Part shown: positions 16,482-64,000 of the stretch, piece after piece | Position numbering within the stretch: position 1 is the first letter of the stretch | Layout: each line of letters starts with the position of its first letter | NCBI GenBank assembly: GCA_001600175.1 | Contig: BCJC01000006.1 | Location: 1,899,781-1,963,780, forward strand | Source: Erythrobasidium yunnanense | Taxonomy: Eukaryota; Basidiomycota; Cystobasidiomycetes; Erythrobasidiales; Erythrobasidiaceae | Direction of reading: 5' to 3' | DNA: 64,000 bases | Program-made: the position numbers and the translations under genes | The notes under the pieces: model-generated | The model's database searches: none | What the model was told of the DNA's origin: nothing | The model's input: only the letters and a program-made list of their open reading frames with translations

Positions 16482-19400
16482 TCACTTCCTGCCATTCTTC
16501 TTGTTCTTCTTCCTATTTCCCGATCCCGCTGAGCCCGTCGATGCGGGACTGACGCCAAGTGAAGCTGCAGAAGCAGGTCTAGAAGGCTGTAGCATGCCTC
16601 CAGCTTCGTACGATGAGGCGTTAGAAGAAGACGAAGGTGAGACACCTAGCAAGAGTTCGGCTTTGGTCAGCGGTATGGTCCGTTCTTGCAGCTGATCGAT
16701 TTCCTTGCTGGCCTCGATAACTGATGGAACGGCTAGTGGAAGGTTTGTTGATATCAGAGTCTTGCTGACTTCGATAGAAGGCTGTAAGGCGTCTTCCTCG
16801 TCAATGCCATCGAGCTTCCACGCTTCCCATTCGTCCCTTCCTTCCATTACTGCATGCTGCTCGTCGCACTGCATGCCCTCTCCTTGCTCATTCGTGTGAG
16901 AGGCAGAATGAACTTCTGGACTCAGGTCCGCAGTACCTCTCTGATTATCACTGCATACGACGGCGCTCCTCGACTCGGCAGAAGAGCCTGCATCGATAGA
17001 TAGAGGAGGAACGGAAGATGAGCCATAAGCCGTCTCGTTCTCAGCCACATCGTACAGCTCTTTCGAAAGTGCGAATGATCCTCTTCTCTTGCCCTCCACA
17101 TATGATGCTTGAGCAGGAAGTGCGAACACCGCATCCTCATCTTCGAACGACAGGCTTGTAGCTTGTTGCCGATCAGATCTGGTAGACGCAGATAGTCGAG
17201 GCGAGGGGCTACTGCTTGACGTGCCTGAGAAATGCTTCGACATTCTCTCCATTGATCGGGTGAGGCTTTGCGTAGTAGCTTTAATCGGTATGCCTCGAGG
17301 CAGAATAGGGATGGGAAGGGCAAGCGGTACTCCCCATCCCCTATTCCCAGCACTGTTCGACAGAGAAGATGGAGAAGAAGTCTTTCCATACCCATTCGGG
17401 AAAGCAGGTGAACTCGAAGGATCAGTGTCCAAGAAAGCATCATCTGGATCTGATGAAATCTGATCTGTGACCCGCTTTTTTGGAGGGGTAGTGTACGAAT
17501 CCAAGATCGTATGCATGGCTGAGCGGAGTTCTTCACCTTCTGCAGTTTCCGAGAGAGGGTAGCGGTGAGTATGGTAGACTTCTGTACGGACTACTAGACG
17601 CTTCCATGACGATGGTAGCGAGAAATTGCCCAGTGAGAAGGCCTTCATGAGTGGATGAGGAGTGCTGGAGCTAGCGTTTGGAGGGTAGTGGTGGAAAGTG
17701 AATGACGGAGAAAGGTAAATAGATCTTGGAAGGACCGCTCGAGAGCGTGAGAAGGTTTCTATTTCCGCCTGATGAGCGGAGGTTCTGCAAGAACGAACGA
17801 GTCATCAGCGTCTGTATCGGACAGCTCGTCGCAATGTGATACCCACGCTTTCCTGACAAGGGCTGGTCTACCGGATGAAAGTTGGCTAACATCGAGCAAG
17901 ACGTCTTTCCAGTCTTCTCCCCTTCCAAGCGGATAATAAGCCACTTTGCTCTCTCTAGCTAGTAATTGCTCGCTCTCGAAGGTAGTGGGTGGACTTCCTC
18001 CAGATCGCATCATCTGCGTGATCCCACTTGCAGCTTGTGAGGTGACGCGATTCGTGAGAGGTGCGCTCGCTGGGGCAGTCTTGGGACTTGATGAGAGTAA
18101 TACACGGGAATAGACGAGATTTGAGAGATGAGGATAGAAAGCGAAGACGTTTACTGAATACGAAGACTTGGAGGAAGTCGATCGAAGGGAATGAAGGATA
18201 TCGCCAGATGGCATGAAGAGGATCGAAGGTGGCTCAGCGGGTCGGACAGAAGCCTTCGCCTCCTCGTCCCCATTTCGAGTATCTGTGTCTGTGCTTGTGC
18301 CAGCTCCAGAAGGATCAGGTAGCGGCTGAGGCGGCTTGATACGTACAAGCGCAGTGACAGACACGCTGAGCGGTATCAACTTAGTCATGTTGACGAATTT
18401 GTCCGAAAGGTGTGTCTCGATACTGGGTTTCCCTCCTCCAGGCAGCAGCGGAAAGATATGAGCTGTCCCTCTTGACGTAGTGACGCTGACGAAGCGCGAG
18501 TCTGCTGACCAGACGGCTTGTACAGCATCTGCAGGTGTCAGACCGCGGTTGAGGCGATACCGGTGCCATACTTTACTATCTTCTCCGTGGGAAGTGGAAG
18601 ATGGGACTCGCGAAGAACCGACGAAGGAGGAAGGACGAAGTTCAAAGATGTGGAAAGCGTGGCCTTCGCTTGAAGAAGTCAAGACTTGCGTTCCGGAAGG
18701 ATTGAATGATAAAAGTGTGATAGGATGGGACTTGGAAGGCTTGAAGTGGGCTATTCGTCGCAGTTGGCTATTGTTGCGAGCTGAGCTGGAGGTAGTCCGC
18801 TGCTTCTGACTTGAAGACAGGAGATCTACTACTATGACTGTGCTTGGAGATCGCTGGCCCTTCAACCCAGTGTATGGAGGCTGATAATCCCTATGACTAG
18901 AATCGCTCTGCCTTCCAGGTTGAGAAGGCTTCGGTGCCGACCTGGAGAAGCGTGTGCCTCCGCTATTCGGGCTTAGTCCACCATGCGAAGTTGGTGAGCT
19001 CCCTTTACTCGAGCGATATCTCGCATATCCATAATCGGTAATGGCTTTCATCCCGCTCAACATCCCTTCTCCCACTTTCCGAGCCGTCTCAGCGGATATC
19101 TGGATAGGTATCGATGAAGGGCGATGGGAAGTCGAGTCGGAGGAAGGGCCATCCCGCCTTGAAGACGCCCCGGCGCTGCTATTCGAGTGCGATTGGGCGG
19201 ATATGATGCCATTGCCTGAGTTCTCGGGCGGGCTTGATGTGCTTGCATAGGCGAGCAGACGCGATCGCGATAATGTATAGACAGGTATCCCTGTCTTGGG
19301 ATGTACGGCTACATCCGATATTGGCGAGCAGGGCTCTTCAGCGAGTGTGAGAAGCGAGTAGACACGTAGAGCTGGGGGATTTGCTGTGGCCTGTGTGACA

Positions 19401-20369
19401 AAGCACATTAGAATCGTTGGTCGGCGGTGCGGGGTTTAGTGGATACGTACAGTTAACAGATATGCCTCATTGAGCTGTATGTCCACTACATTGCCCGGTA
19501 TACGAAGGGATCTGACTATCTTATGGCTTGACAGCGAGTAGAAGCTGATCACGGAATCGCTCGTCCTGGTCAGATTACCAATTAGCCGTTTTCCCAAGCA
19601 GGAAGGCGAGGGCGACTCACAGGATCGCAAGCAGTGGAAAGTCCTTCAGTACGCTTGATTGCGTCGTATCTCTGTTCCGCAAGCTGGGTACTACTCTTGC
19701 ACACGTGACGTGTCCGCTGTTAACCGGCGAACGTGACAGGTTGAAGATTTCCTTTGCCTCGTTTGCATCTTGTATATCCCAGATGCTCAGACCAGCAGTA
19801 TACACTGCAATCAAGACTCTTCTGCCTCCGGTGTCGCCTGGATGCCCGGTAACAGTGGCGGAGTTTGGTAGTACGTCCCATGATGACCAGACGAGATTGT
19901 TTGCTCCGTCTTTGGATATAGAGCCACTGGGATTACCAGCTATACTGGCTGCGAGGTCTGGCTGGCCCGTGCGACCGACGTTGTCATCTCCCGGTTCGCT
20001 ATCGCTATCATGCGTGTCCACATCAGGAAGCTGGGCTGGCGAAGAGGTCTGACCAGCTTGTGAAGCAGTATAAGATGTATTCCGAGCATTTGCCAGGTAG
20101 CTGATGCCTTCCGAGATGCGTCGGTACTGTTGTTCGATACGGCGCGTCGACCCGGCAGCGAGCGGTCTGATGGTAGCGACTATGCTTTCGACGGCGCTTG
20201 ATTCGCTGTGGACATCGTATAGATAGTATACAATGCTTCAGCTTTTTTGCGCATTCAGACCTCAATTGAGACACCCTGACGGCTCTCTGACTCACCGGAG
20301 CAAGACTGGCTGCACGGCATGTCCATCGCTATGTTGTTGCTGATGTCCATGGTGTTGCTTGCTGAGCAT
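16482..20369 (-). CDS. BCAS3: BCAS3-like WD40 beta-propeller protein
   Basis: Five exons on the minus strand (20296-20369, 19621-20235, 19451-19565, 17843-19390, 16482-17768) join in phase to about 1212 residues. After a His/Gln-rich start come WD40-like blades: RRVLIAVYTAGLSIWDI, SDSVISFYSLSSHKIVRSL, LRVYSLLTLAEEPCSPISDVAVHP, SHPITLLSFNPSGTQVLTSS with EGHAFHIFEL, and a signature block KVWHRYRLNRGLTPADAVQAVWSADSRFVSVTTSRGTAHIF (given here in pieces: HRYRLNRGLT, SADSRFVSV, SRGTAHIF). The BCAS3 C-terminal region follows (WAEIETFSRSRAVLP, IYLSPSFTFHHYP), split by the last intron. The final 300 residues are Ser-rich and disordered. In animals BCAS3 with PHAF1/C16orf70 binds phosphoinositides at autophagosome formation sites; a similar role here is inferred. 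The first short exon rests on a less typical GAAG acceptor. Confidence 0.85.
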
Positions 20370-23941: not shown

Positions 23942-25538
23942 CTAGTCCTTGAGTAATCCTTCCTGTGCCAGCCAGCGGGCTAGCTTCTTCCCGATTTTGG
24001 CCGCGCCTTTCCTCGTAGGATGTAGGCCGTCAAACGTATCTTCTCGGCTATCCAGCCATCCTTCTGTATCTGCAAAGTGTAGCCTGGCCTTTGTGCCTTT
24101 CGCAAGCTCCGTCACAGCTGCTATGGAGCTGGGACGTACAAGGAGGGAAGGTCGAGGAGACATCATGACCGATTCAGAACCAGCAGGCATAGGCAGTCCA
24201 GACTCGTTCAGCTTGGAAGACTGTGACTGATCACGAACGAGCTTATGCAGCGATTTCGTGCTTGGTGAAGGTGATATGCGGCTGAGGGAGGGATTAGGCG
24301 AAGGAGATTCCAGCTGCATCTTGGCCAATTCGAGCATAGGAGTCGAAGGGAAATCGCCATTCTGAAAGGGATCTTCGTTCGCCCATACCTCCTGCATGCG
24401 GTGTACCATATCACGCATTTCTGGGTAATTCGTTACGTACTTCCCTTGCTCGTGCGACCAAGATCCGAAAGGCGCTAGCACGACGACATCCCCCGTTCTC
24501 CTGCCATGGGTCTCTTTGAGCATATTCAGAAAGTTCTCGTACGTCTCAATAAACTTGTTCGCTGGAGTATCATCGTTTGTGCCGAGGTTCACGAATATAT
24601 GGGTAGGTCCGCTTTCCGAGTCACGCTCAGCAAAGTCCCAGTCTGCCCCATCCTCCAGAGGATGTGTCTTGAACCATTGGCTTTCCATACCCTCCTCATC
24701 TGGCGAATCGACTAGCTTGATGCCAGGGAAGGCGATAGCGGACAGTCGCAAGTTATTGGATAGCCTCGTCTTGAGTTGAGAAGGATATGCATCGACGAAG
24801 CCGTTGTATTCTTCCTCGCGGCCACTGGTAGGCGAGCTAATGTAGCCGGAAGTAAGGGAGTCACCGATGAAGAGAAGAGTCGGCAGGTTTGAGATGCCTT
24901 CAGGGAAAGTGGGAGAGATGGTATATCCTGCTAGGGTCTGTATGGATCTGACTTGCAAAAGACTGCCCCAGTCAAGCAGGGTTATCTCGACAGTCTTGGT
25001 TTCTGGCGGTCCTCCGTCCGAGCTGGAAGCGATAGGAAGGCCATCCTGCGATATCGATACACCTTCGAGACCAGGTGATGCCAGAGGTTCAATGGTCGTT
25101 CCCTCAGGCGGCCAGAGCCGTATCGACACGTTGGACCTGACGCGCGCAGTATAATAGCTCTTGCCGTCAACGCTCCATCCAATCGTAGGGAACTCGGTAG
25201 CGACAGTCTTGTCGCCTGGCTGCAGGAAGAGAAGGGGTCCAGAGAAGTCGAAGCGCAGACTCGAGCCAGCCCTGCAATTCATCGGTACGGCATCATCAGC
25301 AGACTGACGCATAGGGGCTCTTTCTGTTACGAAACAGCCGCAAGCTGAAAAGGACAGGGTCAGCTCACCAGCCTGCAGTCTTGGATTCATCCCATCGTCC
25401 GATGTAGTCTATCGCTGGGTGCGACGCGGGGAACGAGTTTAGAAGGGGCTGATCTTGCAGGCCTGCAAGAACCGCCGACAGACGCGCTGGATTGCGCAGC
25501 TTGTTGCTGGGCCCATCCAGCACCGGCGAAGCAATCAT
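23942..25538 (-). CDS. SGNH/GDSL-type esterase (carbohydrate-esterase-like)
   Basis: Two exons on the minus strand (25369-25538, 23942-25271) give 499 residues. The N-terminal domain has the jelly-roll pattern of CE2-like enzymes (IDYIGRWDESKTAGWAGSSL then LRFDFSG). The SGNH domain follows: block I LLFIGDSLTSGY with the nucleophile Ser, block III FVNLGTNDD with the oxyanion Asn, and block V DGLHPTRKGAAKIG with the Asp and His of the triad. An insert of about 80 residues, Ser/Pro rich (SPSPNPSLSRISPSPSTKS), sits between blocks III and V and looks disordered. No clear signal peptide, so the site of action is uncertain. Likely an acetyl or other acyl esterase on carbohydrate; the substrate cannot be read. 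Confidence 0.88.
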
Positions 25539-27159: not shown

Positions 27160-27340
27160 TAGCATGATCCTTGCATGGCTGTTGCACTTGTCAGGCAGTC
27201 CTACGTATCTGACACTTATACTGCAAGAGGCGATCGCAAGTTTGACCTCCCTTTGAGGGCCGTCGGATACATTGCTTCTGAGTCTGCAGCATGAACCCTT
27301 CGATGACTTGGCTTACTCACAAAACTTAGTCACAACAAAC

Positions 27341-28444
27341 ATGGCTGCACGAAGAACAAGGTATGCACTCAAGAGTACTAGACGCGGGGCGCCCTACTCA
27401 GCTTGTTACGACAGCACATCCAGCGGATCAACCCACTCGAAGACAGGCTCGTTCACGAGGTCAAGGCAGAACTCCAGCATTTCTATCGTCCCTAACTCTC
27501 GGTATGCAGTGACTCGAATGAGCGCTGCTGTGGCTGACCCGGCTGACCATGCCTGCAGACGATCGTCCATGGCAATAAAGGAACACAATTGGCCCGTTAT
27601 CGCGGAAGACCTGCGCGCTGACCCAAGATTCAAGCAAATACCACTACAAGATGGTCGAGCTTTTGGCTACGGTCTCTTTGGCGCTATACGAGACTACAAG
27701 GATACAGTCATCTTCATACACGGAGTGCGGAGCTCCAACTTGGGAGCCTTACATATCGAGGAGGCCGCCAAACTTCAGGCTATCAGGGTTATCAGCATCG
27801 ATAGGCCAGGCTATGGTCATTCCTCGCCGTACCCGCCCGAAAACAAGCACTTAGACACAATACGAAGCTTTCCCGCTGACTTAGCGGCCCTTCTAGTACA
27901 CTTAAAAGTCAGAGAGGCTCATCTCATTGGCTACTCTGGAGGTACACCGTACGCTCTGTTCTCTGCTGGAAAGCTGCCCCGCCTAGTGCCAGGGTTCAGG
28001 GTTCAAAGCGTCGCAATTATAGCCGGTGTGTGTCCACCAGAGCTGGCTCGTCCGGAGAACCTCGATATTCTGCGCTCGGGCGCCGCAGCGGCTCGGGAAC
28101 GGTACAGCAAGACAGTCCCTCAGGCAACATTCAAGGATCCCGTAGCACGAGAGCGAGATCTATCTGCCTGGAGACCAGACAGTAGCGATCGAGATGTGTC
28201 CTTGCTGACCTCAAATTGGGGCTTCAGACTAAAGGACATCTATGCTCAACCTATCCGCATCTTTCATGGCCTGGCCGATACCACTGTACCAATCGCTTCT
28301 GCCCGCGCCAACAAGGCCAACCTAGCTGGATCAAGGATCTACGAATACCCGACAGAGGACCACCGCACGATCTGCAGTCCCAAAGGAGCCGAGATCTTGA
28401 GCATCATGTGCGGGAGCGGAAATTGGGCAGAGCGAGGGATGTGA
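27341..28444 (+). CDS. Alpha/beta hydrolase fold protein, intact tandem copy
   Basis: A frame of 367 residues from the ATG at 27341. Features: oxyanion-hole motif FIHGVRSS, SIDRPGYGHSSPYPPENK, nucleophile elbow LIGYSGGTPYAL (Gly-Tyr-Ser-Gly-Gly), acid in FHGLADTTVPIA and catalytic His in TEDHRTIC. The closest style is the proline-iminopeptidase/haloperoxidase-like group of alpha/beta hydrolases; substrate unknown. A 57-nt segment (27502-27558, GTATGC to CCTGCAG with a CTGAC branch-like site) is in frame and may be an intron, giving 348 residues. The degenerate copy upstream has intron-like boundaries at the same point, which supports splicing. The N-terminal 60 residues are basic and Ser-rich, possibly a targeting region. 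Confidence 0.85.
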   Translation: MAARRTRYALKSTRRGAPYSACYDSTSSGSTHSKTGSFTRSRQNSSISIVPNSRYAVTRMSAAVADPADHACRRSSMAIKEHNWPVIAEDLRADPRFKQIPLQDGRAFGYGLFGAIRDYKDTVIFIHGVRSSNLGALHIEEAAKLQAIRVISIDRPGYGHSSPYPPENKHLDTIRSFPADLAALLVHLKVREAHLIGYSGGTPYALFSAGKLPRLVPGFRVQSVAIIAGVCPPELARPENLDILRSGAAAARERYSKTVPQATFKDPVARERDLSAWRPDSSDRDVSLLTSNWGFRLKDIYAQPIRIFHGLADTTVPIASARANKANLAGSRIYEYPTEDHRTICSPKGAEILSIMCGSGNWAERGM

Positions 28445-31183: not shown

Positions 31184-32606
31184 ATGGAAGGAGTCCGTGC
31201 CTCAGGCCAAGATCAGCAAGGCAAAGCAAATGCAAAGTCTCCTCAAGATTCTGGTCAGCCGATGCCGGCGATGCCTCAGACCTTGAGTCCCAAACAGGGT
31301 GCTGAAGCTATGGTGGAGTGCGTTTTTGTTCCACTAGATCCTCACTTGCTGCGCTGACAGAGCAGTATTCTTGCAGATCTGGCGTCAACAGACATGCACA
31401 ACGTATCGATGTGCTATTCTTGAAAGCTGTAAGCGTTTTCATCAGGCTCTGTATTTAGGGTCTAGACTGACAAGGAGATCTTAGATCTGGGGTGGTATCT
31501 TCCTGTCCTATGGAGGCATGCTCGAGTCAATAGCAGGAGGCAACTCGGCCTATGTCAACCAGACGTACCCTGGCTTCCAGCGTGTCATCGAAGGATTGGT
31601 CTTCCCAGTCGGTCTGGCCATGATTGTCCTCAGCGGGACAGAACTTCTCACTTCAGACATGATGTTCTTCTTCCTTGCTGCGCTGAAAGGCAAGATTCCT
31701 TGGTGGAGCGTACCGTACTCGGTGGGTTTACATGTATCGCGAGATCGCGCTCGAGCTGACGCTCTTGCCAATACTTAGTACCTCGTGGTCTTCTTCGGTA
31801 ATTTGGTTGGCTCTCTGTTTTTCTGCGGCATCCTCGTCAAATGTAAGGAGATCTGATTGGCGCTCATTCAACATGTAGCTTATGTTCACTTCCTCCCAGA
31901 CTCCGCTCTGATCAGTTCCGATGCCATCTCGAACTTCATCACCAATGCCGCTCACACTCGAGTTGTCGAACTTGAGTGGCACAATCTACTATGCCGCGGT
32001 ATCGGCTGCAACATCATGGTCTGCATGTCCGTCTACCTGGCTTCGATGGCGTCCGACCTTACTGGAAAAGTCATCGGTATCTGGATACCGCTGAGCACTT
32101 TCGTCGTGCTGCAATTCGAGCACGTCGTTGCCGATATGTTCACTGTATGTCCAGCTGTTCTATGCTGGTATTGCTAGGCTAATTCGTATTGACAGATCCC
32201 AATGGCCATCATTTTGCGCGCTCCTGGCATTACGCCTGGCTTCTACATTTGGAAGTGAGTGACAGCTATCTCTTGTCTTTTGAAAACGAATACCCAGCTG
32301 ATTCTCGTTTCAAGGACACTGCTTCCGGCTCTGATTGGAAATATTATCGGCGCTCTCCTCCTCGGACTATCCTTCTACTGGATGTACTTGCACGATACAT
32401 CATCACCGCTTGTACCGCACAGCCACCACAACAGCCGCGATGAAGAGATGACCGTCAATGGCGAGGCGCCTCACCAGGAGAAGACAGGACCTCTTGGACG
32501 AGGCTTCTTCGGACGCCCTACAAAGATCCAGGATGTCCTCAGCCCCAAGCATCATGGTATGCATGAAGGATTCAAGAATGCAGGCTACGATCGCAGTCAC
32601 TTCTAA
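31184..32606 (+). CDS. Formate/nitrite transporter (FNT) family channel
   Basis: Seven exons (31184-31317, 31377-31428, 31485-31721, 31779-31842, 31900-32144, 32196-32254, 32315-32606) join in phase to 360 residues. The FNT fold is clear: LFLKAIWGGIFLSYGGML, then VFPVGLAMIVLSGTELLTSD (the conserved GxELxTxxM region), PWWSVPYSYLVVFFGNLVGS, HNLLCRGIGCNIMVCMSVYL (the NxLVCLAV-type site), GIWIPLSTFVVLQFEHVVADMF and LLPALIGNIIGALLLG. Six helices and a pentameric channel are expected from the family; the permeant ion is formate, nitrite or another small monovalent anion. The C-terminal 80 residues are hydrophilic with a HSHHNSRDE patch. Location is probably the plasma membrane. The next gene is an MFS transporter on the same strand. 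Confidence 0.95.
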
Positions 32607-34897: not shown

Positions 34898-34989
34898 AGT
34901 ATAATGTAGCATTATCGCATAGCGTGCATAGCCAGTCGTTGTATCCTTCTGCATTGACGCTCGGGCCGCTTCCGAGCGCTCCGATCTCT

Positions 34990-35143
34990 TCCTTCCCCTT
35001 TTTCCCATTCCTCTCTTTTCTTCTTCCTCTCTTCTCTTCTCTTCTCTTTCTCTCTTTCCTTCCTATCGACTCTCTGACTTGACTTGTCTTCCAGCAGTAA
35101 GCTCACACCGATTAGCCATAGCTTTATGCTGATGTTACGGCAG
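34990..35143 (+). promoter_or_regulatory. Polypyrimidine tract ahead of the first paralogue
   Basis: A C/T-only run with repeats of TCTTCTTCC and CTCTTCT (about 34993-35065) precedes the start codon by about 80-150 bp. CT-rich tracts in this place mark transcription start regions of strongly expressed fungal genes. Similar tracts precede the two other paralogues. Confidence 0.5.
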
Positions 35144-36267
35144 ATGTCGAGCGCATCCAAGCTAGCCTTTGGATTTGCCAACTGCAGCCGCGAGATTGAG
35201 AAAGCAGTACTCGATGCCCTTGTCAACGACGACAAGCATCCTCAAGCCAGTCCTCGATTCGGAACTCACTTTTTGGCTTTCCCTCTGCTGCACGTCAACC
35301 GCTATTTGCGACAGCAGGCGTAAGAAGGGTTCACTGCTGCGCCAGGACAGCGCTGATTATCTGTTGCAGAGCCAAGCTACTCTACAAGATCGCCTTCGAG
35401 ACCAAGCGACAAAGCATCTACTATCCCAACGTCATGCCCATCAAGTGTGACCAATTGATCTTCGGAGTGTCCGCAATCTGCTATCAGGATGGTCTAAGAG
35501 AAGACAACGATCCACGCTTCGTCTTCACTAAGCGAGGCAATCAGATGCATTCTGCCGAATACATGCCATTCGAGGTTGAGCATAACTCTACCGAGCTGTT
35601 TGTCGTCTTCAAGCCCCGCCTTCTAAGATCGGGAATCGGTCATTTACCAGATCCTTGGACCGTGCAGACCGACAAGAAGGGTTTGGAGCATCCAGAAATT
35701 CCGACCTGTGTCCAGCTGCTTAGCACAGCTTGGTTCGATACTACCGACAAGCTAGCTACCAATCCTGCTTCAACGAGGCGTTCATCGTCGTATTATACGG
35801 ATGAGCTTGATTCCGAAGCGCTCAAAGAGAGAGTGGTACATCGATATGGACTCAAATCGGCTGTTCCTCTACCCATCAACTCGAATGGCATACCGTACGA
35901 TATCGACCTAGCTCCAGTACTACATCCAACTTGGGGAACAAAGGGAAAGCCGGGCCCGCACAAAAAGATCGAGAAGGTCGGCTCCGCTTGGTCAGTCTCC
36001 TACGAGTCGAAGTTCATGGATATTCGTGACTTCGTGGGAGATGATGAGGATATGATGATGATGGTAATGATGGCAGAGGCGCAGCAGAGACAGAAGGAGA
36101 TGTACGGGCAGTACGAAAGCTCATCAAGCCTCGATATCGAATACGTCAAAGTCCCACTTCTAGACGCCCTTCGACCTCCCATCGTTGCGGAGTCGCCGTA
36201 CGCTTATCTCGACGAAGAAGATCACGCAGTAAATCCCAGCGACGCTCATTTCGGCCAATTCTTCTAG
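35144..36267 (+). CDS. Unknown-family paralogue A of a tandem trio
   Basis: Two exons (35144-35319, 35370-36267) join in phase 2 to 357 residues; an ATG at 35126 would add six. N-terminal region: REIEKAVLDALVN, then HPQASPRFGTHFLAFPLLHV and NRYLRQQA ending at the intron. After the splice, AKLLYKIAFETKRQ. Middle: REDNDPRFVF, AEYMPFEVEH, STAWFD. C-terminal signature: YGLKSAVPLPI, YDIDLAPVLHPTWGTKGKPG and VPLLDALRPPI. An acidic, Met-rich insert DEDMMMMVMM is unique to this copy. There is no signal peptide or membrane helix. The same blocks recur in the next two genes with the intron at the same place, so the three are tandem duplicates. I do not recognise the family. Confidence 0.8.
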
Positions 36268-36602
36268 CGGATCGAGGAGACGAAGGGTCAACCGACAATC
36301 ATCCCAATTTATGAAATCAAGAACAAAACAGCCTCAGTATAGCACGTAACGATGTTTAGCTACTTTTGCATTGCTTAAACAACGCGACATGTGGGCATTG
36401 ACCTTCTCTATCGGGACCTCGTGCCTTGTTCGCCTCTCTATCCGAAACCCCTGTCTTACACTTCTTATACTTTTTAAGCCTTCCTCAACTTTCCTGCTCT
36501 TCCTTCTTTTCCTTCATCTCCCTCTCTGCCTCTTCCCTCTCCTACTTATCACCACCTCAAGGGGCTTCAGCTTGGGAAGGTCAGGCGGAGCGCCAGCTAA
36601 TC
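36268..36602 (+). promoter_or_regulatory. Spacer with polypyrimidine tract ahead of paralogue B
   Basis: 335 bp between paralogues A and B. A pyrimidine-rich stretch runs about 36470-36545 (CTTCCTCAACTTTCCTGCTC then CCTTCTTTTCC). No other feature is seen. Confidence 0.5.
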
Positions 36603-37738
36603 ATGATCCTTCGCTCATCGCGCTCGCAGATGGTAACATCGACCCGAATATTCGGCTCGCCAAAATGCAGTCAAGAAATCGAACAGTCTATACTGCACTA
36701 TCTGGTCAACGACAAGGACCATCCTCAGGCCAGCTCTCGCTTCGGCATACACTTTCTCGCCTTTCCTCTGCTCCATGTTAATCGTCACCTGCGACAGCAA
36801 GTGTGGGCATCTTTCAGTCTTGTGTTAATCGACATATGCTGAGAGCTCCTATCAGTGCCAAGTTGCTATACAAGATAGCTTACAAAACGGAGCGTCAGGC
36901 CCTCCTGTATCCAGCCTTGTACAGGTTGACAGGCGAAGCTATGGTCCTGGCTCCCTCGCGCATCTGCAACATAGAGGGCGTGAGTGAAAACGACGACCCT
37001 CGCCAAATTTTCAAGGACGCCCCTAGACATGTCATGGAATGTGTCGAATATCGTCCAACCTCTCTGGATCACACGTCGCCCTCTCTTCTGGTCTCCTTCG
37101 AAGCGGAGAAACAACGTGAAGCACACAGGCTGCCAGCTATGTGGGAAGTCGAGGTTGGCAAGGAGGGTCGCGAATACTGGGAATGGGACACCTGCTTGCA
37201 AGCCGTTAGCACAGCTTGGTTCGAGAGAACAGGGGAACCTATTGCTGCTCTCGATTGGGAAGGACATGCCTTCATCAAGGACGATGAACAGGAATGGGGC
37301 GCGCGCAAAGAAGCTTTCAACAAGCGCGCTCTGGGTCGTCACGGCCTGAAGTCTACTGTCCCTCTTCCTATAGATGGAAAGGGACTCACCTTCGACATCG
37401 CTCTTCCACCCATCATACATCCAAAATGGGGCACCAGAGGAAGTCCTGGTCCGCACATGGGAATCGACATGTCTCTAGACAGATGCTGTCCTGAATGGAA
37501 ATTCACCTACAAAAGTGAAGTTTTCGATCTAAAGCCTGTCCTCGGGGAGCATGGAGAGCTGCTTCCTGGTTATGATTACATCAGGAGCGAAGAAGAGAAG
37601 ATTACGAGTCTCCGTAAGGATATGAGCACTTTCGACATTCAGCTCATTCAAGTTCCTCTCCTGGATCTGCTCCGACCTCCTATTTCCCACGTATCTGTGC
37701 ATTACGAATACCAACACTGGCTCTACGATGGGTTCTAG
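36603..37738 (+). CDS. Unknown-family paralogue B of a tandem trio
   Basis: Two exons (36603-36802, 36856-37738) join to 360 residues; a second ATG at 36630 would give 351. The same blocks as paralogue A appear: SQEIEQSILHYLVN, HPQASSRFGIHFLAFPLLHV, NRHLRQQV at the intron, AKLLYKIAYKTERQ, ENDDPRQIFKDA, ECVEYRPTSLDHTSPSLLVS, STAWFERTG, HGLKSTVPLPID, FDIALPPIIHPKWGTRGSPG and VPLLDLLRPPI. The intron (53 nt) is in the same place and phase as in A and C. Closer to C than A in the middle part (TSLDxTSPSL-VS is shared by B and C). Cytosolic or nuclear from the lack of targeting signals; function unknown. Confidence 0.8.
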
Positions 37739-38111
37739 ATAAGCCGCTAGATGTATGGGATCTAGGGTCCGCACGTCTCGCAGCCGGAGACTATGTTTTT
37801 GAGGGTATGAACGATATGTAGACAGTGCTAAGCTACCATACAATGACTCAAACTCACCTGCGCGCACGAGCCTTCTCTCGAAGACGTTTCGCTTGGCCGG
37901 ATCCTTTCCAGCCGACGGTCGCCCTGTCTGACACTTGGTCGATTTTCTCCACCCCTTCTCTTGTCTCTTCTTCGCTTCTTTCCGCCTCGTTCGTCATCCT
38001 CTCCTGACTATCGCTGAGCTCCACGCTGGTCTACACCTATCCCGACGAAGGCGAGATCCATCTTCCCGTGTCTCAGGATTTAGCCTGATCTGACAAATTC
38101 TCTCATCTCAG
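37739..38111 (+). promoter_or_regulatory. Spacer with pyrimidine-rich stretch ahead of paralogue C
   Basis: 373 bp between paralogues B and C, with a C/T-rich stretch at about 37940-38010 (CTCCACCCCTTCTCTTGTC). A 5' UTR intron is possible but cannot be fixed. Confidence 0.45.
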
Positions 38112-39165
38112 ATGGCTGCGGCTGGGATAATATTATTCGGAGCGAATCGCTTTCCGGATATCGAAGACTCTATCCTCGACTACCTTGTCAACGTCATACG
38201 ACATCCTCAAGCTAGCGCGCGCTTTGCGACCCATTTCCTGGCATTTCCTCTCCTTCGTGTCAATCGTCACCTGCGACAGCTAGTGTAGGTATAGCTCAAG
38301 GTAGAACCTGCTGATATCCGTAGCTGATTCTCCTTTCAGTGCCAGGTTACTGTATAAGATAGCCTTCGAAACGGAACGGAAGCCTATTCTCTATCCAGAG
38401 GGAGAGTATTTGGAGTACGATTCCCTCGTCCTGGCTCCATCAGATGGATGCTTGCATAGGGACGCGAGGATGGACGACGATCCAAGGCGAATATTTCGCG
38501 GAGGAGCTGCAAGCGAGGTTGGATGTGCGGAATATTTTCCGACTTCACTGGACGAAACTTCGCCCTCCCTTGTCGTGTCTTTTCAGGTAGATGCCAAGCA
38601 GACCACACCGTCTAACTGGGCGATCACGACCGATGCGGAAGGCCGCGAACACCGTCACCACCCAACATATCTTCAGGCTGCCAGCACTGCGTGGTTTGAG
38701 GAAGCTTGGGTCACTCCCACAAGCTCCGTTTCGGAGATCGACCGCAGTGTCTGGGAGCCAGAAGCCTACAAGAGGACCTACAATATAATGGTCATCTGCC
38801 GTCACGGTCTCAGAGCGGTCGTGCCCACTCCAGTCACCGAAGGAGGGCTTTTCTACGACGTAGCTCTCCCGCCAACCATTCGCCCCAAGTGGGCCACTAA
38901 AGGTGATCCTGGACCTCATTGCGCATCCGATGCGTCTTTGGATCCGAAATTTCCAGGTTGGCAGTTCACGTATGAGAGTGAAGCGGTTGACATAAACGCG
39001 ATCACCACACTATATGATGGCCTGCGACTCCATGCAGGTAGGGACAGAGTGAGAGAAAAGAATGGCTTCTTCGAAGATGTCAGTAGTCTGCGGGTCCAGC
39101 TCATACAGATTTCTCTTCTCGAGCTGCTGCGGCCGCCAATTAGTCGCAAGTCTCCCTACCGTTAA
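38112..39165 (+). CDS. Unknown-family paralogue C of a tandem trio
   Basis: Two exons (38112-38284, 38340-39165) join to 332 residues, the shortest copy. The blocks repeat: MAAAGIILFGANRFPDIEDS, ILDYLVN, HPQASARFATHFLAFPLLRV, NRHLRQLV at the intron, ARLLYKIAFETERK, DDDPRRIF, CAEYFPTSLDETSPSLVVS, STAWFEE, HGLRAVVPTPV, YDVALPPTIRPKWATKGDPG and ISLLELLRPPI. Absolutely conserved positions among the three copies include the HPQAS core, LLYKIA, DDP, AEY/VEY, STAWF, HGL/YGL, the K/T-W-x-T/A-K/R-G-x-P-G-P-H box and LLRPPI. The W-and-P-rich box may be a binding surface. No enzyme motif is recognised. Confidence 0.8.
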
Positions 39166-39404: not shown

Positions 39405-41288
39405 TCACTTCTCAGAAAGGGCGGCGACACCAGGCAGGTTCTGCGAGGAAAATCGTTAGCTAGGCAGCGTGACAGTTGAAACTGCACCCACCTTGCCCTC
39501 GAGCAGCTCGAGCGAAGCACCGCCTCCAGTCGAGACGTGGCTGAGCTTGTCCTCGGCGCCGTATTCTGACAGCAAGAGTTCAGCTCATCCCATATTCAGC
39601 GAGAACAGCACTTACTAGCCACGACAGTAGCGGTATCACCACCACCAACGATGACTGTTGCTCCCTTCGAGGCAGCCTCGATGCATGCATCAAGAGCTAT
39701 CTTTGAGCCTTGGGCAAAGTTGTCAAACTCGAAGACTCCAGGAGGACCGTTCCAGAGGATAGTCTTGCTAGCCAGGATAGTCTCCTTGAAGATTTCCTGG
39801 GACTTGGGTCCAATGTCGAGACCCATCAAGCCGTCCTTGATGCCTTCTGCATCGGTAGCGCTTCCGACCGTAGCGTCAGCGCCGAACTTGTCTCCGGTAA
39901 CGTAGTCAACAGGGAAGACGATCTTGACGTTGTTCTTCTTTGCCTTCTCCATGATGTCGTTGACCTTCTCGCTACCTGGCTTATCGTACAGCGAGTTCCC
40001 GATGGAAATGTCGTCGAGCGTCTTCTTGAACGTGAACGCCATTCCTCCTCCAATGATGATGGTGTTGACCTTGTCTAGCAAGTTGTCGATGAGCTGAATC
40101 TTGTCGCTGATCTTGGCTCCTCCTAGGATGGCCAGGAAAGGACGCTCTGGGTTCTCGAGGGCCCTGGTGTCGGGTTAGACAGTGTATAAAATGCTGTCTA
40201 AGGATTACTTACTTGGCAAAGAACTCGAGCTCCTTTTTCATGAGGAAGCCAGCAGCCTTCTGAGGCAGATCAACGCCGACCATGGAAGAGTGAGCTCGGT
40301 GGGCAGTACCGAAAGCGTCGTTGATGTCTTTGTAGATCATAATCAGTATAGAGACATACATTTATCTGGACGCAGCCTTACAGACATCGCCAAGAGCCTG
40401 ATAGCAAGGTCAGCCAGTTTACACAGATGTAGTGAGAGGCACGTACGGTCAAACCCTTGCGGAACTCCTCAACCTTTGCCTTGTCAGCTTTGGTCTTGTT
40501 GCCATCCTTGTCCTTGGAAGAGCCCTCCTCTTCAATGTGGAATCGCAGATTCTCCAGCAGGATCCTGTGAATTCGCATCGTCCTGAGCTAGACTTTCGAA
40601 AGTAGCAGCGCCGAAAGTACGTACACTTGACCGTTGGAAGCGCTATTGACTTTCTCTTCGACCTTCGGTCCGACGCACTCATCTACAAACTCGACTGGCT
40701 TGTTGAGAACTGGTTGAGCCAGGAACAAACCGGGATAGGGGTAGGGTCTTATCGTCAACAAAGCAGGACCATGCAGGGCTGTTTCGACATTGACATACGC
40801 GAAGAGAGCTCATCGGCTACAGGCTTGAGGCTGTACTTTGCGACGACCTTCCCGTCAGGACGGCCAAGATGCGACATGAGGATGACGGCTTTGGCTCCAG
40901 CGTCGATAGCATGCTTGATGGTAGGTAGCGCCGCGACGATACGCTGTTATATCGACATATCATAGCGCCAGGGAACCAGCCAAGAATCAGCTTCTTGAAC
41001 CATGTTCCCAGGCTCCCAGGCCCTCGAGCTCTGGATGCACGACGGGTGTGCGCACCGCATTATTTGTGATCTCTCCTTTCTGTCCAAAGGGAACGTTGAA
41101 GTCTGCTCTGTTTCCGTCCTGATTTCAGCTGCTGCCGCGAAGCTTTGGATCTGGACGACTAACCTGATGAGCACTCTTTTACCGCTCAATTGAACGTCGG
41201 AGACTGTCAGCTTCTTGGCTAGAGACTGCAGCGTCAAAGAATCTATCAGCCTAGCCTATCTACGGATGGCCGAAATATCGAATACCAT
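39405..41288 (-). CDS. PGK1: 3-phosphoglycerate kinase
   Basis: Eleven exons on the minus strand (41286-41288, 41164-41225, 41056-41107, 40799-40943, 40625-40709, 40447-40564, 40382-40397, 40213-40327, 39616-40163, 39492-39565, 39405-39440) join in phase to 417 residues, the usual PGK size. The first exon is the ATG alone, and exon 7 is only 16 nt. Motifs: [99 protein letters not shown] and the end [11 protein letters not shown]. The enzyme transfers phosphate from 1,3-bisphosphoglycerate to ADP in cytosolic glycolysis. Very intron-rich for a highly expressed enzyme. Divergent from the MFS gene at 41384. Confidence 0.97.
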
Positions 41289-53676: not shown

Positions 53677-54522
53677 TTACGGAGCTTCCTGAAAATCGAA
53701 AAGGGCAGGCATCCAGTATTGCAGTTCTCCGTCGGCTCCATCATCCAGCCAGACTAATCCTTCGCCCATCAAAGCTTTCTGCAATGCGTTCTCCGCTCGT
53801 GCAGTAGCCCAAGGCCGGCCTTTCTGACCTGTCCACGATTGCAGGCGCGAAGTCGTGACACAGCCCGTCCCGCTTTCAGAAGCACACTCCAGTATAGTCA
53901 TAGAGTCTGTGTCAAACTCTGCTGGGACCGTGCGAACCATCTTCTTCTGTCCGGCTTGAATAATGGAATAGCCGCATCCCAGAGGTTCCAGCGCATTGAT
54001 GGCTCTCACTACGTCGGAAGCTGTGATTGTAGCACTGAATTGACTGTCATTCCCTGATCCGAGCATGCCCTTGAACCTTGACGAAGTCGATGCAGGTGCG
54101 GCGCTGGAAGTCGATGATGATCCGCTTCGCAATCTTGCAACTCCACGAACGACTTCGTCGATTTCGATGAGACCTCCATTGCGCTCTCTACTCTGTAAGC
54201 AGACATCGACCACTTGAACAGCCAGAGCATACGTCCATTCGCCAATGCCGAGATATTCCCATATGCCTTTTCGACCACCGCTTCCTAGAGGATCGACGCC
54301 GAGCTGGTTGCACATGTCTGCGAAATGCGTACGGAACACTGGATCTGACAGTATCTTGGCTCTATGCTTGTTGGCGAAGCTTCGCAGAGCTGCTTGAAAG
54401 GTTGCCAGTTGCGCCTGAAGCGTCGAGAGCTGCTGTTCCGAGATTGTGCTAGAGAGCGACGAGTACGAAGCTAGAGTTGCAGATTGCTGTGATAACGAAG
54501 AGAGGCCGACATTGCGACGCAT
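53677..54522 (-). CDS. SNF8: ESCRT-II subunit Vps22/SNF8 (EAP30)
   Basis: A single exon of 281 residues from the ATG at 54522 to the TAA at 53677. It begins MRRNVGLSSLSQQSATLASY, matching the M-R-R-x-x-G start of EAP30. An N-terminal helical hairpin (QLSTLQAQLATFQAALRSF, then FRTHFADMCNQLGVDPLGSG) is followed by GIWEYLGIGEWTYALAVQVV and two winged-helix domains: TASDVVRAINALEPLGCGYS and ENALQKALMGEGLVWLDDG. ESCRT-II, with Vps25 and Vps36, bridges ESCRT-I to ESCRT-III in sorting ubiquitinated cargo into multivesicular bodies. It is a bit longer than usual (about 250) through a Ser/Thr-rich insert between the two parts. In-frame codons upstream of 54522 lack an ATG and are not counted. Confidence 0.95.
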   Translation of the reverse strand: MRRNVGLSSLSQQSATLASYSSLSSTISEQQLSTLQAQLATFQAALRSFANKHRAKILSDPVFRTHFADMCNQLGVDPLGSGGRKGIWEYLGIGEWTYALAVQVVDVCLQSRERNGGLIEIDEVVRGVARLRSGSSSTSSAAPASTSSRFKGMLGSGNDSQFSATITASDVVRAINALEPLGCGYSIIQAGQKKMVRTVPAEFDTDSMTILECASESGTGCVTTSRLQSWTGQKGRPWATARAENALQKALMGEGLVWLDDGADGELQYWMPALFDFQEAP

Positions 54523-56025
54523 CTTTACGCGAGTCAGCGTCGAGGTAAGGTGGGCAAGAAGGGGTATGCTAGCACAAGTATCATGTGGAAATATAGCATT
54601 CTGTTGTAGTGCACATAAATTGTAGCAGGCAGATCCACAGACAAAGTCTTGCACCCTCAAGTGCATCGATCTTCTTGTCTTCGCTCAATCCGATACCACT
54701 CGATAAAGGCTCCGGCTTCCGCATTGGTGTCTGCGCCTAGCATCCTAGCTCTAGTGGCCATACATTTCCTCTCCATAATCCTGTCCGACCCGCTATTCTT
54801 CTTCACCTCTCAGGCTCTCACCTGGTCCGAGACGATAGTAGCCGGACATCACAGAAACGAGTATGCTTGACATCTAATAGCCGCAAACGCGATGCGCTGA
54901 CTCGCACGAACTGACTCACTCAAGGCATGTTCACCATATTCGTGAAAGAAGAAACCGCGACGCCTACGTCAAAGACGACTACCTACAAAATCTTGGGGAT
55001 CACTGTCTTGCAGATATCCACCACTATATCTAGGAGTGACAATGATCTAAGGGATAATAAATCTACTGTGCCTGAGCTGAGGCCGTCAGATCGCCTAGAA
55101 AAGGACCCTGTAAAGTCAGGTCATACGCCGTCCTGAATGAAGGCATCGTACTCTCCTTTCGATGAGATCGCCTATATTCTCGACAGTGGCATCGCAGCGG
55201 CGAACACCATTGGAGCAGACAACACAATCGAAGGGCAGAAGAAAGGGGAGCTAGGAGCCCACATCGTACGGCCACCAGTACACATGGGAGGGTGATTGCA
55301 AAGGAGCAGGCTTTCTCAAACAAAGGTTTAGGAGAAGACCGTTAGTCTTCCCTCCTTGAGCTTCCACTTAGTCTCGACTACTTCACTGGACGGAACGCTG
55401 TACAATCTCGACATCACTGTGCTGGCGTCTCTGGCGTCTGGATGGCGTCCACGGCTTTGTTTATGTTGGCATCGCTGGCCGTCGTTGGGTTCGGAATATC
55501 GTAGGTGTTGGCCTGGAGAGCCTGCAGCTCGTCCGCCAAGTTGAAGTCCATGCGTGAGAGTAGTTTACACCTCTTTCTGTTTTGATTCTGATTCGGTTGG
55601 TAATTGGCAGAAACGCTCGAAGCCGGATGCTGTCAGGCCTGAATTACTTTACGCGACCGGGTCGCTGGTACGAAATATGCTACAAGAGCTTCGTATTATA
55701 TGGACTCATGTCCTTCAGCCAAGATTATACACACTAGAAAACCAGATCATGGCCATTACAGCTTCTCGGGAAGCGCGTGGTGTCAGCTGGGGAGCTCTTC
55801 GTACACAAGGCTTCGCTCTTCTTCCATACACTTACACGCTATTGTTTACCTGCACGGTAATCCGGAACGCATCCGCCTGTCAGACACCCCTATACGTCCA
55901 AAACTGCGGGGGCCCTAATTGCGACTGAGTCAAGTCCAGAATACACGAACTCTGCACCGCAAAGCCCATCAATGAAGGACATTCTGCGACCTATAAGTAT
56001 CACTTTGGAAGCGCACCAATTCATG
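54523..56025 (+). other. Gene-poor interval with a possible small spliced gene
   Basis: 1.5 kb. Plus-strand segment 54650-54870 encodes a hydrophobic stretch (SILALVAIHFLSIILSDPLF) with no ATG, followed by a GTATGC donor (54860) and an acceptor at 54924. Beyond it two frames are open: one with a 69-residue frame from the ATG at 54927, the other reading HVHHIRERRNRDAYVKDDYL. A further short frame starts at the ATG at 55137 (MKASYSPFDEIAYILDSGIA). These may be exons of one small membrane-protein gene, but no full model closes. The rest, including a 124-codon frame at 55554-55928, shows nothing recognisable. Confidence 0.25.
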
Positions 56026-63313: not shown

Positions 63314-63715
63314 GATGACACTCCATTATTCTTGTGTAGCTTTATAGGCGTGGAAGCTGTTGTCATCAATGGCAGTTCGTTCGATTCTGGTTTTTCTCTC
63401 TTTTTCGACAGGCGCAAGTGGGCATGGGCTACGGCGGGCTCAGAGGTTGCATGCTGTGTCGCAGATGACCATCAAGGCAACCCTTTCAAGCAAAGGCGAT
63501 GATTGTAGGAACCGGAACGTCGCCGAGCTTTTCTTCCTTCAGGCACAGCAGCCGCATGCGACCCAAGACTTCGCATGAGGTCGCAGCATGCCGCACAGCA
63601 ATAAAAATGAAACGACAGAGAGGTGTAGAAGGCTCTAGAGTCGCGCCAACCCCTCCACGCATTTTTTCGGCCTCCCTCGCATTTTTTCGCTTTTCCTCTC
63701 AAACAGGAAGGGGGA
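63314..63715. other. Intergenic region with small direct repeats
   Basis: About 400 bp after UPF2. It contains two copies of CGCATTTTTTCG (63658-63669 and 63679-63690) close to the poly-G run. No gene is seen. Confidence 0.5.
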
Positions 63716-63738
63716 GGGGGGGGGGGGGGGGGGGGGGG
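63716..63738 (+). repeat. 23-nt poly-G run
   Basis: An uninterrupted run of 23 G, preceded by GGGGA. It lies between UPF2 and the tRNA-Glu gene, about 30 bp from the tRNA 3' end. Homopolymers of this length are prone to replication slippage and assembly error. Confidence 0.9.
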
Positions 63739-63769
63739 AGAAGATGATATGTGGATGCTGCAAAAAGCT

Positions 63770-63854
63770 TCCCCGACTGGGAATCGAACCCAGCTCTCCC
63801 GCGAGCATTCAAGAGAATGAAAAGCGGAAATCTTAACCGATAGACGATCGAGGA
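63770..63854 (-). tRNA. tRNA-Glu, anticodon UUC, with a 14-nt intron
   Basis: The minus strand folds as a tRNA: acceptor TCCTCGA pairs with TCGGGGA, D-arm GTCT...AGAT, anticodon stem TCCGC with GCGGG, loop TTTTCA+C giving anticodon TTC, T-arm CTGGG-TTCGATT-CCCAG. A 14-nt insert (TTCTCTTGAATGCT) sits one base 3' of the anticodon, the standard place of nuclear tRNA introns. Total 85 nt, 71 without the intron. The B box GGTTCGATTCC is perfect. The 5' side is unusual: two further copies of the 5' half lie upstream (see findings). Confidence 0.9.
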
Positions 63855-64000
63855 CGTTCTGGCACTGAGGCCGATAGACGATTGCAATGCAGGCATCGTA
63901 ATCGCTAGACGATTCAGGAGTCTGAACTGTTAAAGGCGGATTACTGCTTGCGCAGCTACCCATTGTGCCATTCAACAGCCCATTTTCCCTCTTCCCTTGC
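63776..64000 (-). repeat. Right copy of a 225-bp inverted repeat
   Basis: Reverse-complement partner of 56026-56250. It includes all but the last six bases of the tRNA-Glu gene, plus about 145 bp of upstream flank, and continues to the window edge. Confidence 0.9.

Follow-up and report, generated by a model that had tools for sequence, protein, structure and literature searches.

What do three adjacent genes encode when they resemble one another and direct searches do not place them? The genes, here called A, B and C, lie in tandem on the + strand at positions 35144-39165 of a 64,000-nucleotide stretch of Erythrobasidium yunnanense DNA (assembly GCA_001600175.1, contig BCJC01000006.1, positions 1,899,781-1,963,780). 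This whole stretch is referred to as the window, and positions are those of the window unless another contig is named. The trio is a real, old, three-copy family that is unplaced by direct searches. The reading that we favour, tentatively and at slightly under an even chance of being right, is that these are long-diverged tandem copies with a likely degenerate N-terminal F-box, whose products would be substrate adaptors of Skp1-cullin-F-box (SCF) ubiquitin ligases. Membership in the F-box family is not claimed, because Pfam's F-box models do not match.

Gene models, divergence and direct searches

A sequence-only reading of this locus, which our analysis partly supports, had described three consecutive same-strand genes for proteins of 330-360 residues, each with one intron at the same position and phase. 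The models built from the DNA agree: the predicted proteins are 357 (A), 360 (B) and 332 (C) residues long, and all three genes consist of a short first exon, a single small intron of phase 2 at one shared alignment position, and a long second exon. Each intron also contains a CTGA-type site 16-17 bases from its 3' end.

35144..35319, + strand: gene A exon 1 (start ATG; further in-frame ATGs at 35126 and 35132)
35320..35369, + strand: gene A intron (50 bases, phase 2, GT...AG)
35370..36267, + strand: gene A exon 2 with stop
35932..35961, + strand: gene A WGTKGKPGPH box
36603..36802, + strand: gene B exon 1 (further ATG at 36630)
36803..36855, + strand: gene B intron (53 bases, phase 2, GT...AG)
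36856..37738, + strand: gene B exon 2 with stop
37427..37456, + strand: gene B WGTRGSPGPH box
38112..38284, + strand: gene C exon 1
38285..38339, + strand: gene C intron (55 bases, phase 2, GT...AG)
38340..39165, + strand: gene C exon 2 with stop
38890..38919, + strand: gene C WATKGDPGPH box

Because three long open second exons occur together with 39-49% protein identity (over aligned codons, A/B 41%, A/C 39%, B/C 49%), the trio is not a product of chance. A search of the genome (20.9 Mb, 10 contigs) with protein C gave six matches up to E 10, every one an exon of A, B or C, and a search with protein B at E 0.001 likewise returned only these exons. The expansion is local and tandem, as the sequence-only reading had proposed; three copies were found in the genome. 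That reading's further proposal that the expansion was recent is not supported, because divergence at fourfold sites is close to saturation: among such sites with a conserved amino acid, 44 of 66 differ between A and B (0.67), 49 of 64 between A and C (0.77) and 54 of 83 between B and C (0.65), against expectations of 0.75, 0.75 and 0.74, respectively, for unrelated sequences of equal composition. The duplications therefore do not look recent. The nonsynonymous distance (dN) among the copies is 0.46-0.63. Conserved blocks separated by freely varying linkers are seen in the codon alignment, as earlier described, and since they persist against near-saturated silent sites, selection probably acts on the proteins.

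The most conserved stretch lies in the N-terminal block (alignment columns 51-75, 20 of 25 invariant), which has the majority consensus EIE--IL--LVN---HPQAS-RF--HFLAFPLL-VNR-LRQ--A-LLYKIA--T. The C-terminal part comprises approximately 270 residues with the conserved motifs STAWF, R-GL---VP-P, W-T-G-PGPH and L-RPPI. Of the blocks listed in the sequence-only reading, HPQAS-RF, HFLAFPLL, LLYKIA, STAWF and WGTKG/WGTRG/WATKG-x-PGPH were all recovered; the last, LLRPPI, occurs in B and C, but reads ALRPPI in A. No signal peptide or membrane helix is apparent by hydropathy (top 19-residue mean 1.03; a dedicated predictor was not run), in line with that reading.

The family also stays unplaced, as first reported. 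Searches of the whole proteins against Pfam, NCBIfam and PHROGs gave nothing up to E 10 once HMMER's filters had been applied, and no significant match to the trio was obtained among PDB sequences. A PDB glycosyltransferase (E 1.2) was dismissed. Pfam scans of N-terminal pieces listed an XLF coiled coil (E 0.12 with the piece from B, 0.24 with a consensus-like piece) and an E+ motif (E 0.91), both far under the cut-off and rejected. In viral and prokaryote collections, neither of which is meant for fungi, 0 of 12 and 0 of 208 pattern matches, respectively, encode a relative of the trio. No paper on such a trio was found among the matches listed, which lie mostly outside subscription journals. 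The earlier statement that the proteins carry no known motif holds for curated families, with no significant match, but is softened by the N-terminal block, which aligns weakly with the F-box in profile-profile comparison.

Likeness of the N-terminal block to F-box domains

The starting lead was that this block recalls fungal F-box domains. As in F-box and F-box-like proteins (PF00646, PF12937; SCF substrate adaptors), the block is N-terminal; the trio has the pattern of approximately 55 residues, E-I--I followed by V-R-------LLY; and the genes are in tandem, as are many F-box genes of the same genome. For comparison, an F-box sample was taken from this genome, comprising 20 cluster stretches with 70 open reading frames (ORFs) of at least 250 residues, not all of which are F-box genes. 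A profile was seeded from the 40 of these ORFs with an LP-x-E start and extended to 52 domains.

The N-terminal 105 columns of the trio aligned to this profile with a score of 21.3 and an HHalign probability of 30.8% (P 5e-4). The alignment takes in 47 columns and spans the whole domain, starting at the EI in helix 1 and ending at LLYKIAF. The corresponding segments, each split by the intron, are as follows.

35186..35403, + strand: gene A F-box-like segment (SREIE...LLYKIAFET), from profile-profile alignment
36669..36889, + strand: gene B F-box-like segment (SQEIE...LLYKIAYKT), from profile-profile alignment
38151..38373, + strand: gene C F-box-like segment (FPDIE...LLYKIAFET), from profile-profile alignment and shuffles

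None of 200 column shuffles reached 21.3 (mean 9.2, maximum 16.3), and 20 negative controls, cut from the C-terminal regions of F-box-cluster proteins, scored 7.3-16.0. In sliding windows along the trio, the two that hold the N-terminal block scored 21.3 and 17.7, with the other seven at 6.0-9.5. When single sequences were tested with two versions of an F-box hidden Markov model (HMM), the score of protein C was reached by 0 of 1000 shuffles in either version, that of A by 9 and 10 of 1000, and that of B by 8 and 13 of 1000. In five of the ten F-box ORFs of stretches L017-L020, helices 1 and 2 are, by eye, separated by a long loop, as they are in the trio. Structure models were made from exon-wise translations only. 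The AlphaFold2 model of exon 1 (57 residues) has helices at 15-26 and 36-56, which may correspond to the first two helices of an F-box; with a mean predicted local distance difference test (pLDDT) of 57.6 the model is weak, and it gives weak support rather than proof. The model of exon 2 (three-row alignment) had a pLDDT of 29.1 and was discarded.

A number of results weigh against the F-box reading. Ten leave-one-cluster-out positive controls (ten F-box clusters represented by at most three members apiece, with the profile built without them) scored 27.6-72.3, all above the trio; because 21.3 exceeds the shuffles and negative controls yet falls under every positive control, the trio appears to sit between chance and clear F-box membership. 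The whole trio scored 22.7 against the same profile at an HHalign probability of only 13.5%. In full proteins, the F-box HMM alone covers only helices 2-3, with 6.5 bits for C, 0.2 for B and -0.2 for A, and in a ranking of 152 sequences (window ORFs of at least 100 residues, including the trio's own exons, plus the trio) C came 1st, B 15th and A 23rd. Among 18 clusters or single ORFs aligned singly, only the largest F-box cluster exceeded 20.0, scoring 24.2 at a probability of 6.1% (maximum of 100 shuffles, 22.5). With Pfam's F-box models and HMMER's filters, neither the spliced proteins nor pieces from their N-termini were listed up to E 10, and no genome match up to E 1 fell at the trio, although an intron inside the domain would hamper such a six-frame search. 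A PDB profile search returned no F-box chain, only a bacterial peroxide regulator (E 0.21), which was dismissed. Comparison with the 70 cluster ORFs showed no link to the trio outside the N-terminal block (best E 0.1).

The usual start of F-box helix 1 is L-P-x-E. A (CSREIE) and B (CSQEIE) lack the L-P in front of the helix and C (FPDIE) has half of it, which also speaks against an F-box. This start is discussed in a Macrophomina phaseolina F-box survey, which reports some members without L or P (PMC7991009); the loss is therefore no bar in itself.

Alternatively, the trio may be an orphan family with its own fold, its F-box likeness being a chance match of leucine- and arginine-rich amphipathic helices. 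Curated families yield no significant match, A and B hardly exceed the window's ORFs in the HMM ranking, and all true F-box controls outscore the trio, whose HHalign probability is at most 31%. We nevertheless consider this explanation unlikely, as the score was reached by no shuffle (0/200) and no negative control (0/20), and the match covers the domain in full and sits N-terminally, as is usual.

Less probable again is an F-box origin followed by loss of Skp1 binding, with the helices kept only as part of a larger fold that has another role. The missing dipeptide in A and B and the weakness of the likeness would fit such a history, and roles outside SCF are known for F-box proteins (PMC3814724). 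The N-terminal block is, however, the best conserved part of the proteins, suggesting that its surface still binds something.

Relatedness to 2EXR (PF20150)/DUF7730 (PF24864) proteins, which are likewise fungal and combine an EIR--I helix with an LL-VCR-IY-E-like block, is very improbable. The helix-1 motif and an LL--CR-like block are similar by eye, and the same genome holds a tandem trio of such genes (contig C7, near 681.9-684.8 kb); no common C-terminal motif is apparent by eye. The profile-profile score is 19.3 over only 24 columns, with 200 shuffles reaching 22.9, and in genome searches with the curated models every place listed up to E 10 lies elsewhere than the trio. Membership of the trio in DUF7730/2EXR was rejected. 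The second tandem trio itself (C7, 681000-686500) has no significant profile link to the trio at 35144-39165.

F-box genes of the genome and a possible role for the trio

A genome search with PF12937 lists 140 places up to E 1. At least 84 of them are over Pfam's cut-off, many in tandem. The figure of 84 is a count of the first entries of the PF12937 listing, and some later entries are also over the cut-off; genome-search counts for large families are in general lower bounds. PF00646 gave 94 places at E 1 or less. Matches to Skp1 over the cut-off lie on contigs C9 and C5, and cullin matches on contigs C1, C3 and C6. Clusters of F-box matches were noted on contig C1 near 0.47-0.54, 1.31-1.32, 2.61-2.63 and 3.27-3.31 Mb and on contig C5 near 0.98-1.01 Mb, besides others, and proteins within such tandem arrays are mutually related.

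As published counts, PMC7991009 gives 16 F-box proteins in Ustilago maydis and 17 in Puccinia graminis, and PMC9744329 gives 74 in Aspergillus nidulans. A Microbotryum paper (PMC4469406) has a table row for PF00646 in which nine columns range from 3 to 18 and the tenth reads 43. Next to these figures, the present tally of at least 84 F-box-like places over the cut-off is high, with the caution that six-frame places are not genes and that methods differ. If compared with the Ustilago maydis and Puccinia graminis counts, it amounts to a large F-box expansion in this 20.9-Mb genome, in which the trio is most likely one small degenerate branch.

The trio differs from F-box and F-box-like proteins in its lack of a Pfam match and, in A and B, of the L-P dipeptide, in the intron inside the domain, in the pyrimidine tract upstream (described below), and in a C-terminal part unlike that of the cluster ORFs examined. 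Under the favoured F-box reading, helix 1 (EIE--IL--L) and the block FPLL-VNR-LRQ--A-LLYKIA would be the F-box helices that dock on Skp1, which would place the proteins within cullin-based ligases. The C-terminal residues, matching nothing, may bind and choose the substrate, and the three copies, long kept with altered linkers, could then have different targets. A bolder version, which we regard as rather unlikely, is an undescribed fungal family that combines a hidden F-box with a C-terminal domain of its own for binding a substrate or ligand (a STAWF / W-T-G-PGPH fold), as an old tandem trio with its own pyrimidine-tract promoter.

If the F-box reading is true, curated F-box models overlook fungal adaptors, SCF adaptors of compact fungal genomes are undercounted, and the C-terminal part would be an undescribed substrate-binding module. 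If it is wrong, the trio remains a three-copy family unnamed in the libraries searched.

Upstream tracts and surroundings

Each gene is preceded by a pyrimidine-rich tract, as the sequence-only reading had noted.

34975..35081, + strand: pyrimidine tract upstream of gene A
36478..36558, + strand: pyrimidine tract upstream of gene B
37939..38012, + strand: pyrimidine tract upstream of gene C

The best 60-base C+T fractions are 0.98 (A), 0.92 (B) and 0.88 (C), located 99, 64 and 109 bases upstream of the ATG, respectively. At a C+T fraction of at least 0.85 the window holds four tracts on the + strand and one on the - strand, and three of the five precede the trio. Within 350 bases upstream of the F-box-cluster ORFs, no tract of at least 0.85 was found (0 of 68), and one ORF has a tract of at least 0.80 (0.83); 68 of the 70 ORFs were usable, two being too near the stretch end, and distances were measured from the first ATG, which is possibly not the true start. 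The tract is common to the trio copies, with none as strong before the cluster ORFs examined, and is the clearest oddity of the trio. That it is a promoter feature is a guess, under which one promoter type would have been passed on with the duplications. As for other shared motifs, the upstream stretches compared, 500, 500 and 370 bases long, have no 7-mer with at least two purines common to all three; A and B alone share three 9-mers, two of which overlap.

The following family matches were obtained elsewhere in the window.

17759-19435, - strand: BCAS3 WD40 match
23942-25408, - strand: GDSL lipase match
27257-28444, + strand: alpha/beta hydrolase match
31485-31778, + strand: formate/nitrite transporter match
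39596-40174, - strand: phosphoglycerate kinase match
53677-54684, - strand: EAP30/Vps36 match

In the family scan of ten other window ORFs, four were without a match. ARAGORN found no tRNA in the window, and its last 1000 bases contain no telomere-type repeat (TTAGGG or CCCTAA). The window end is also the contig end, and a long G tract and a sequence resembling a tRNA are visible by eye at 63600-64000.

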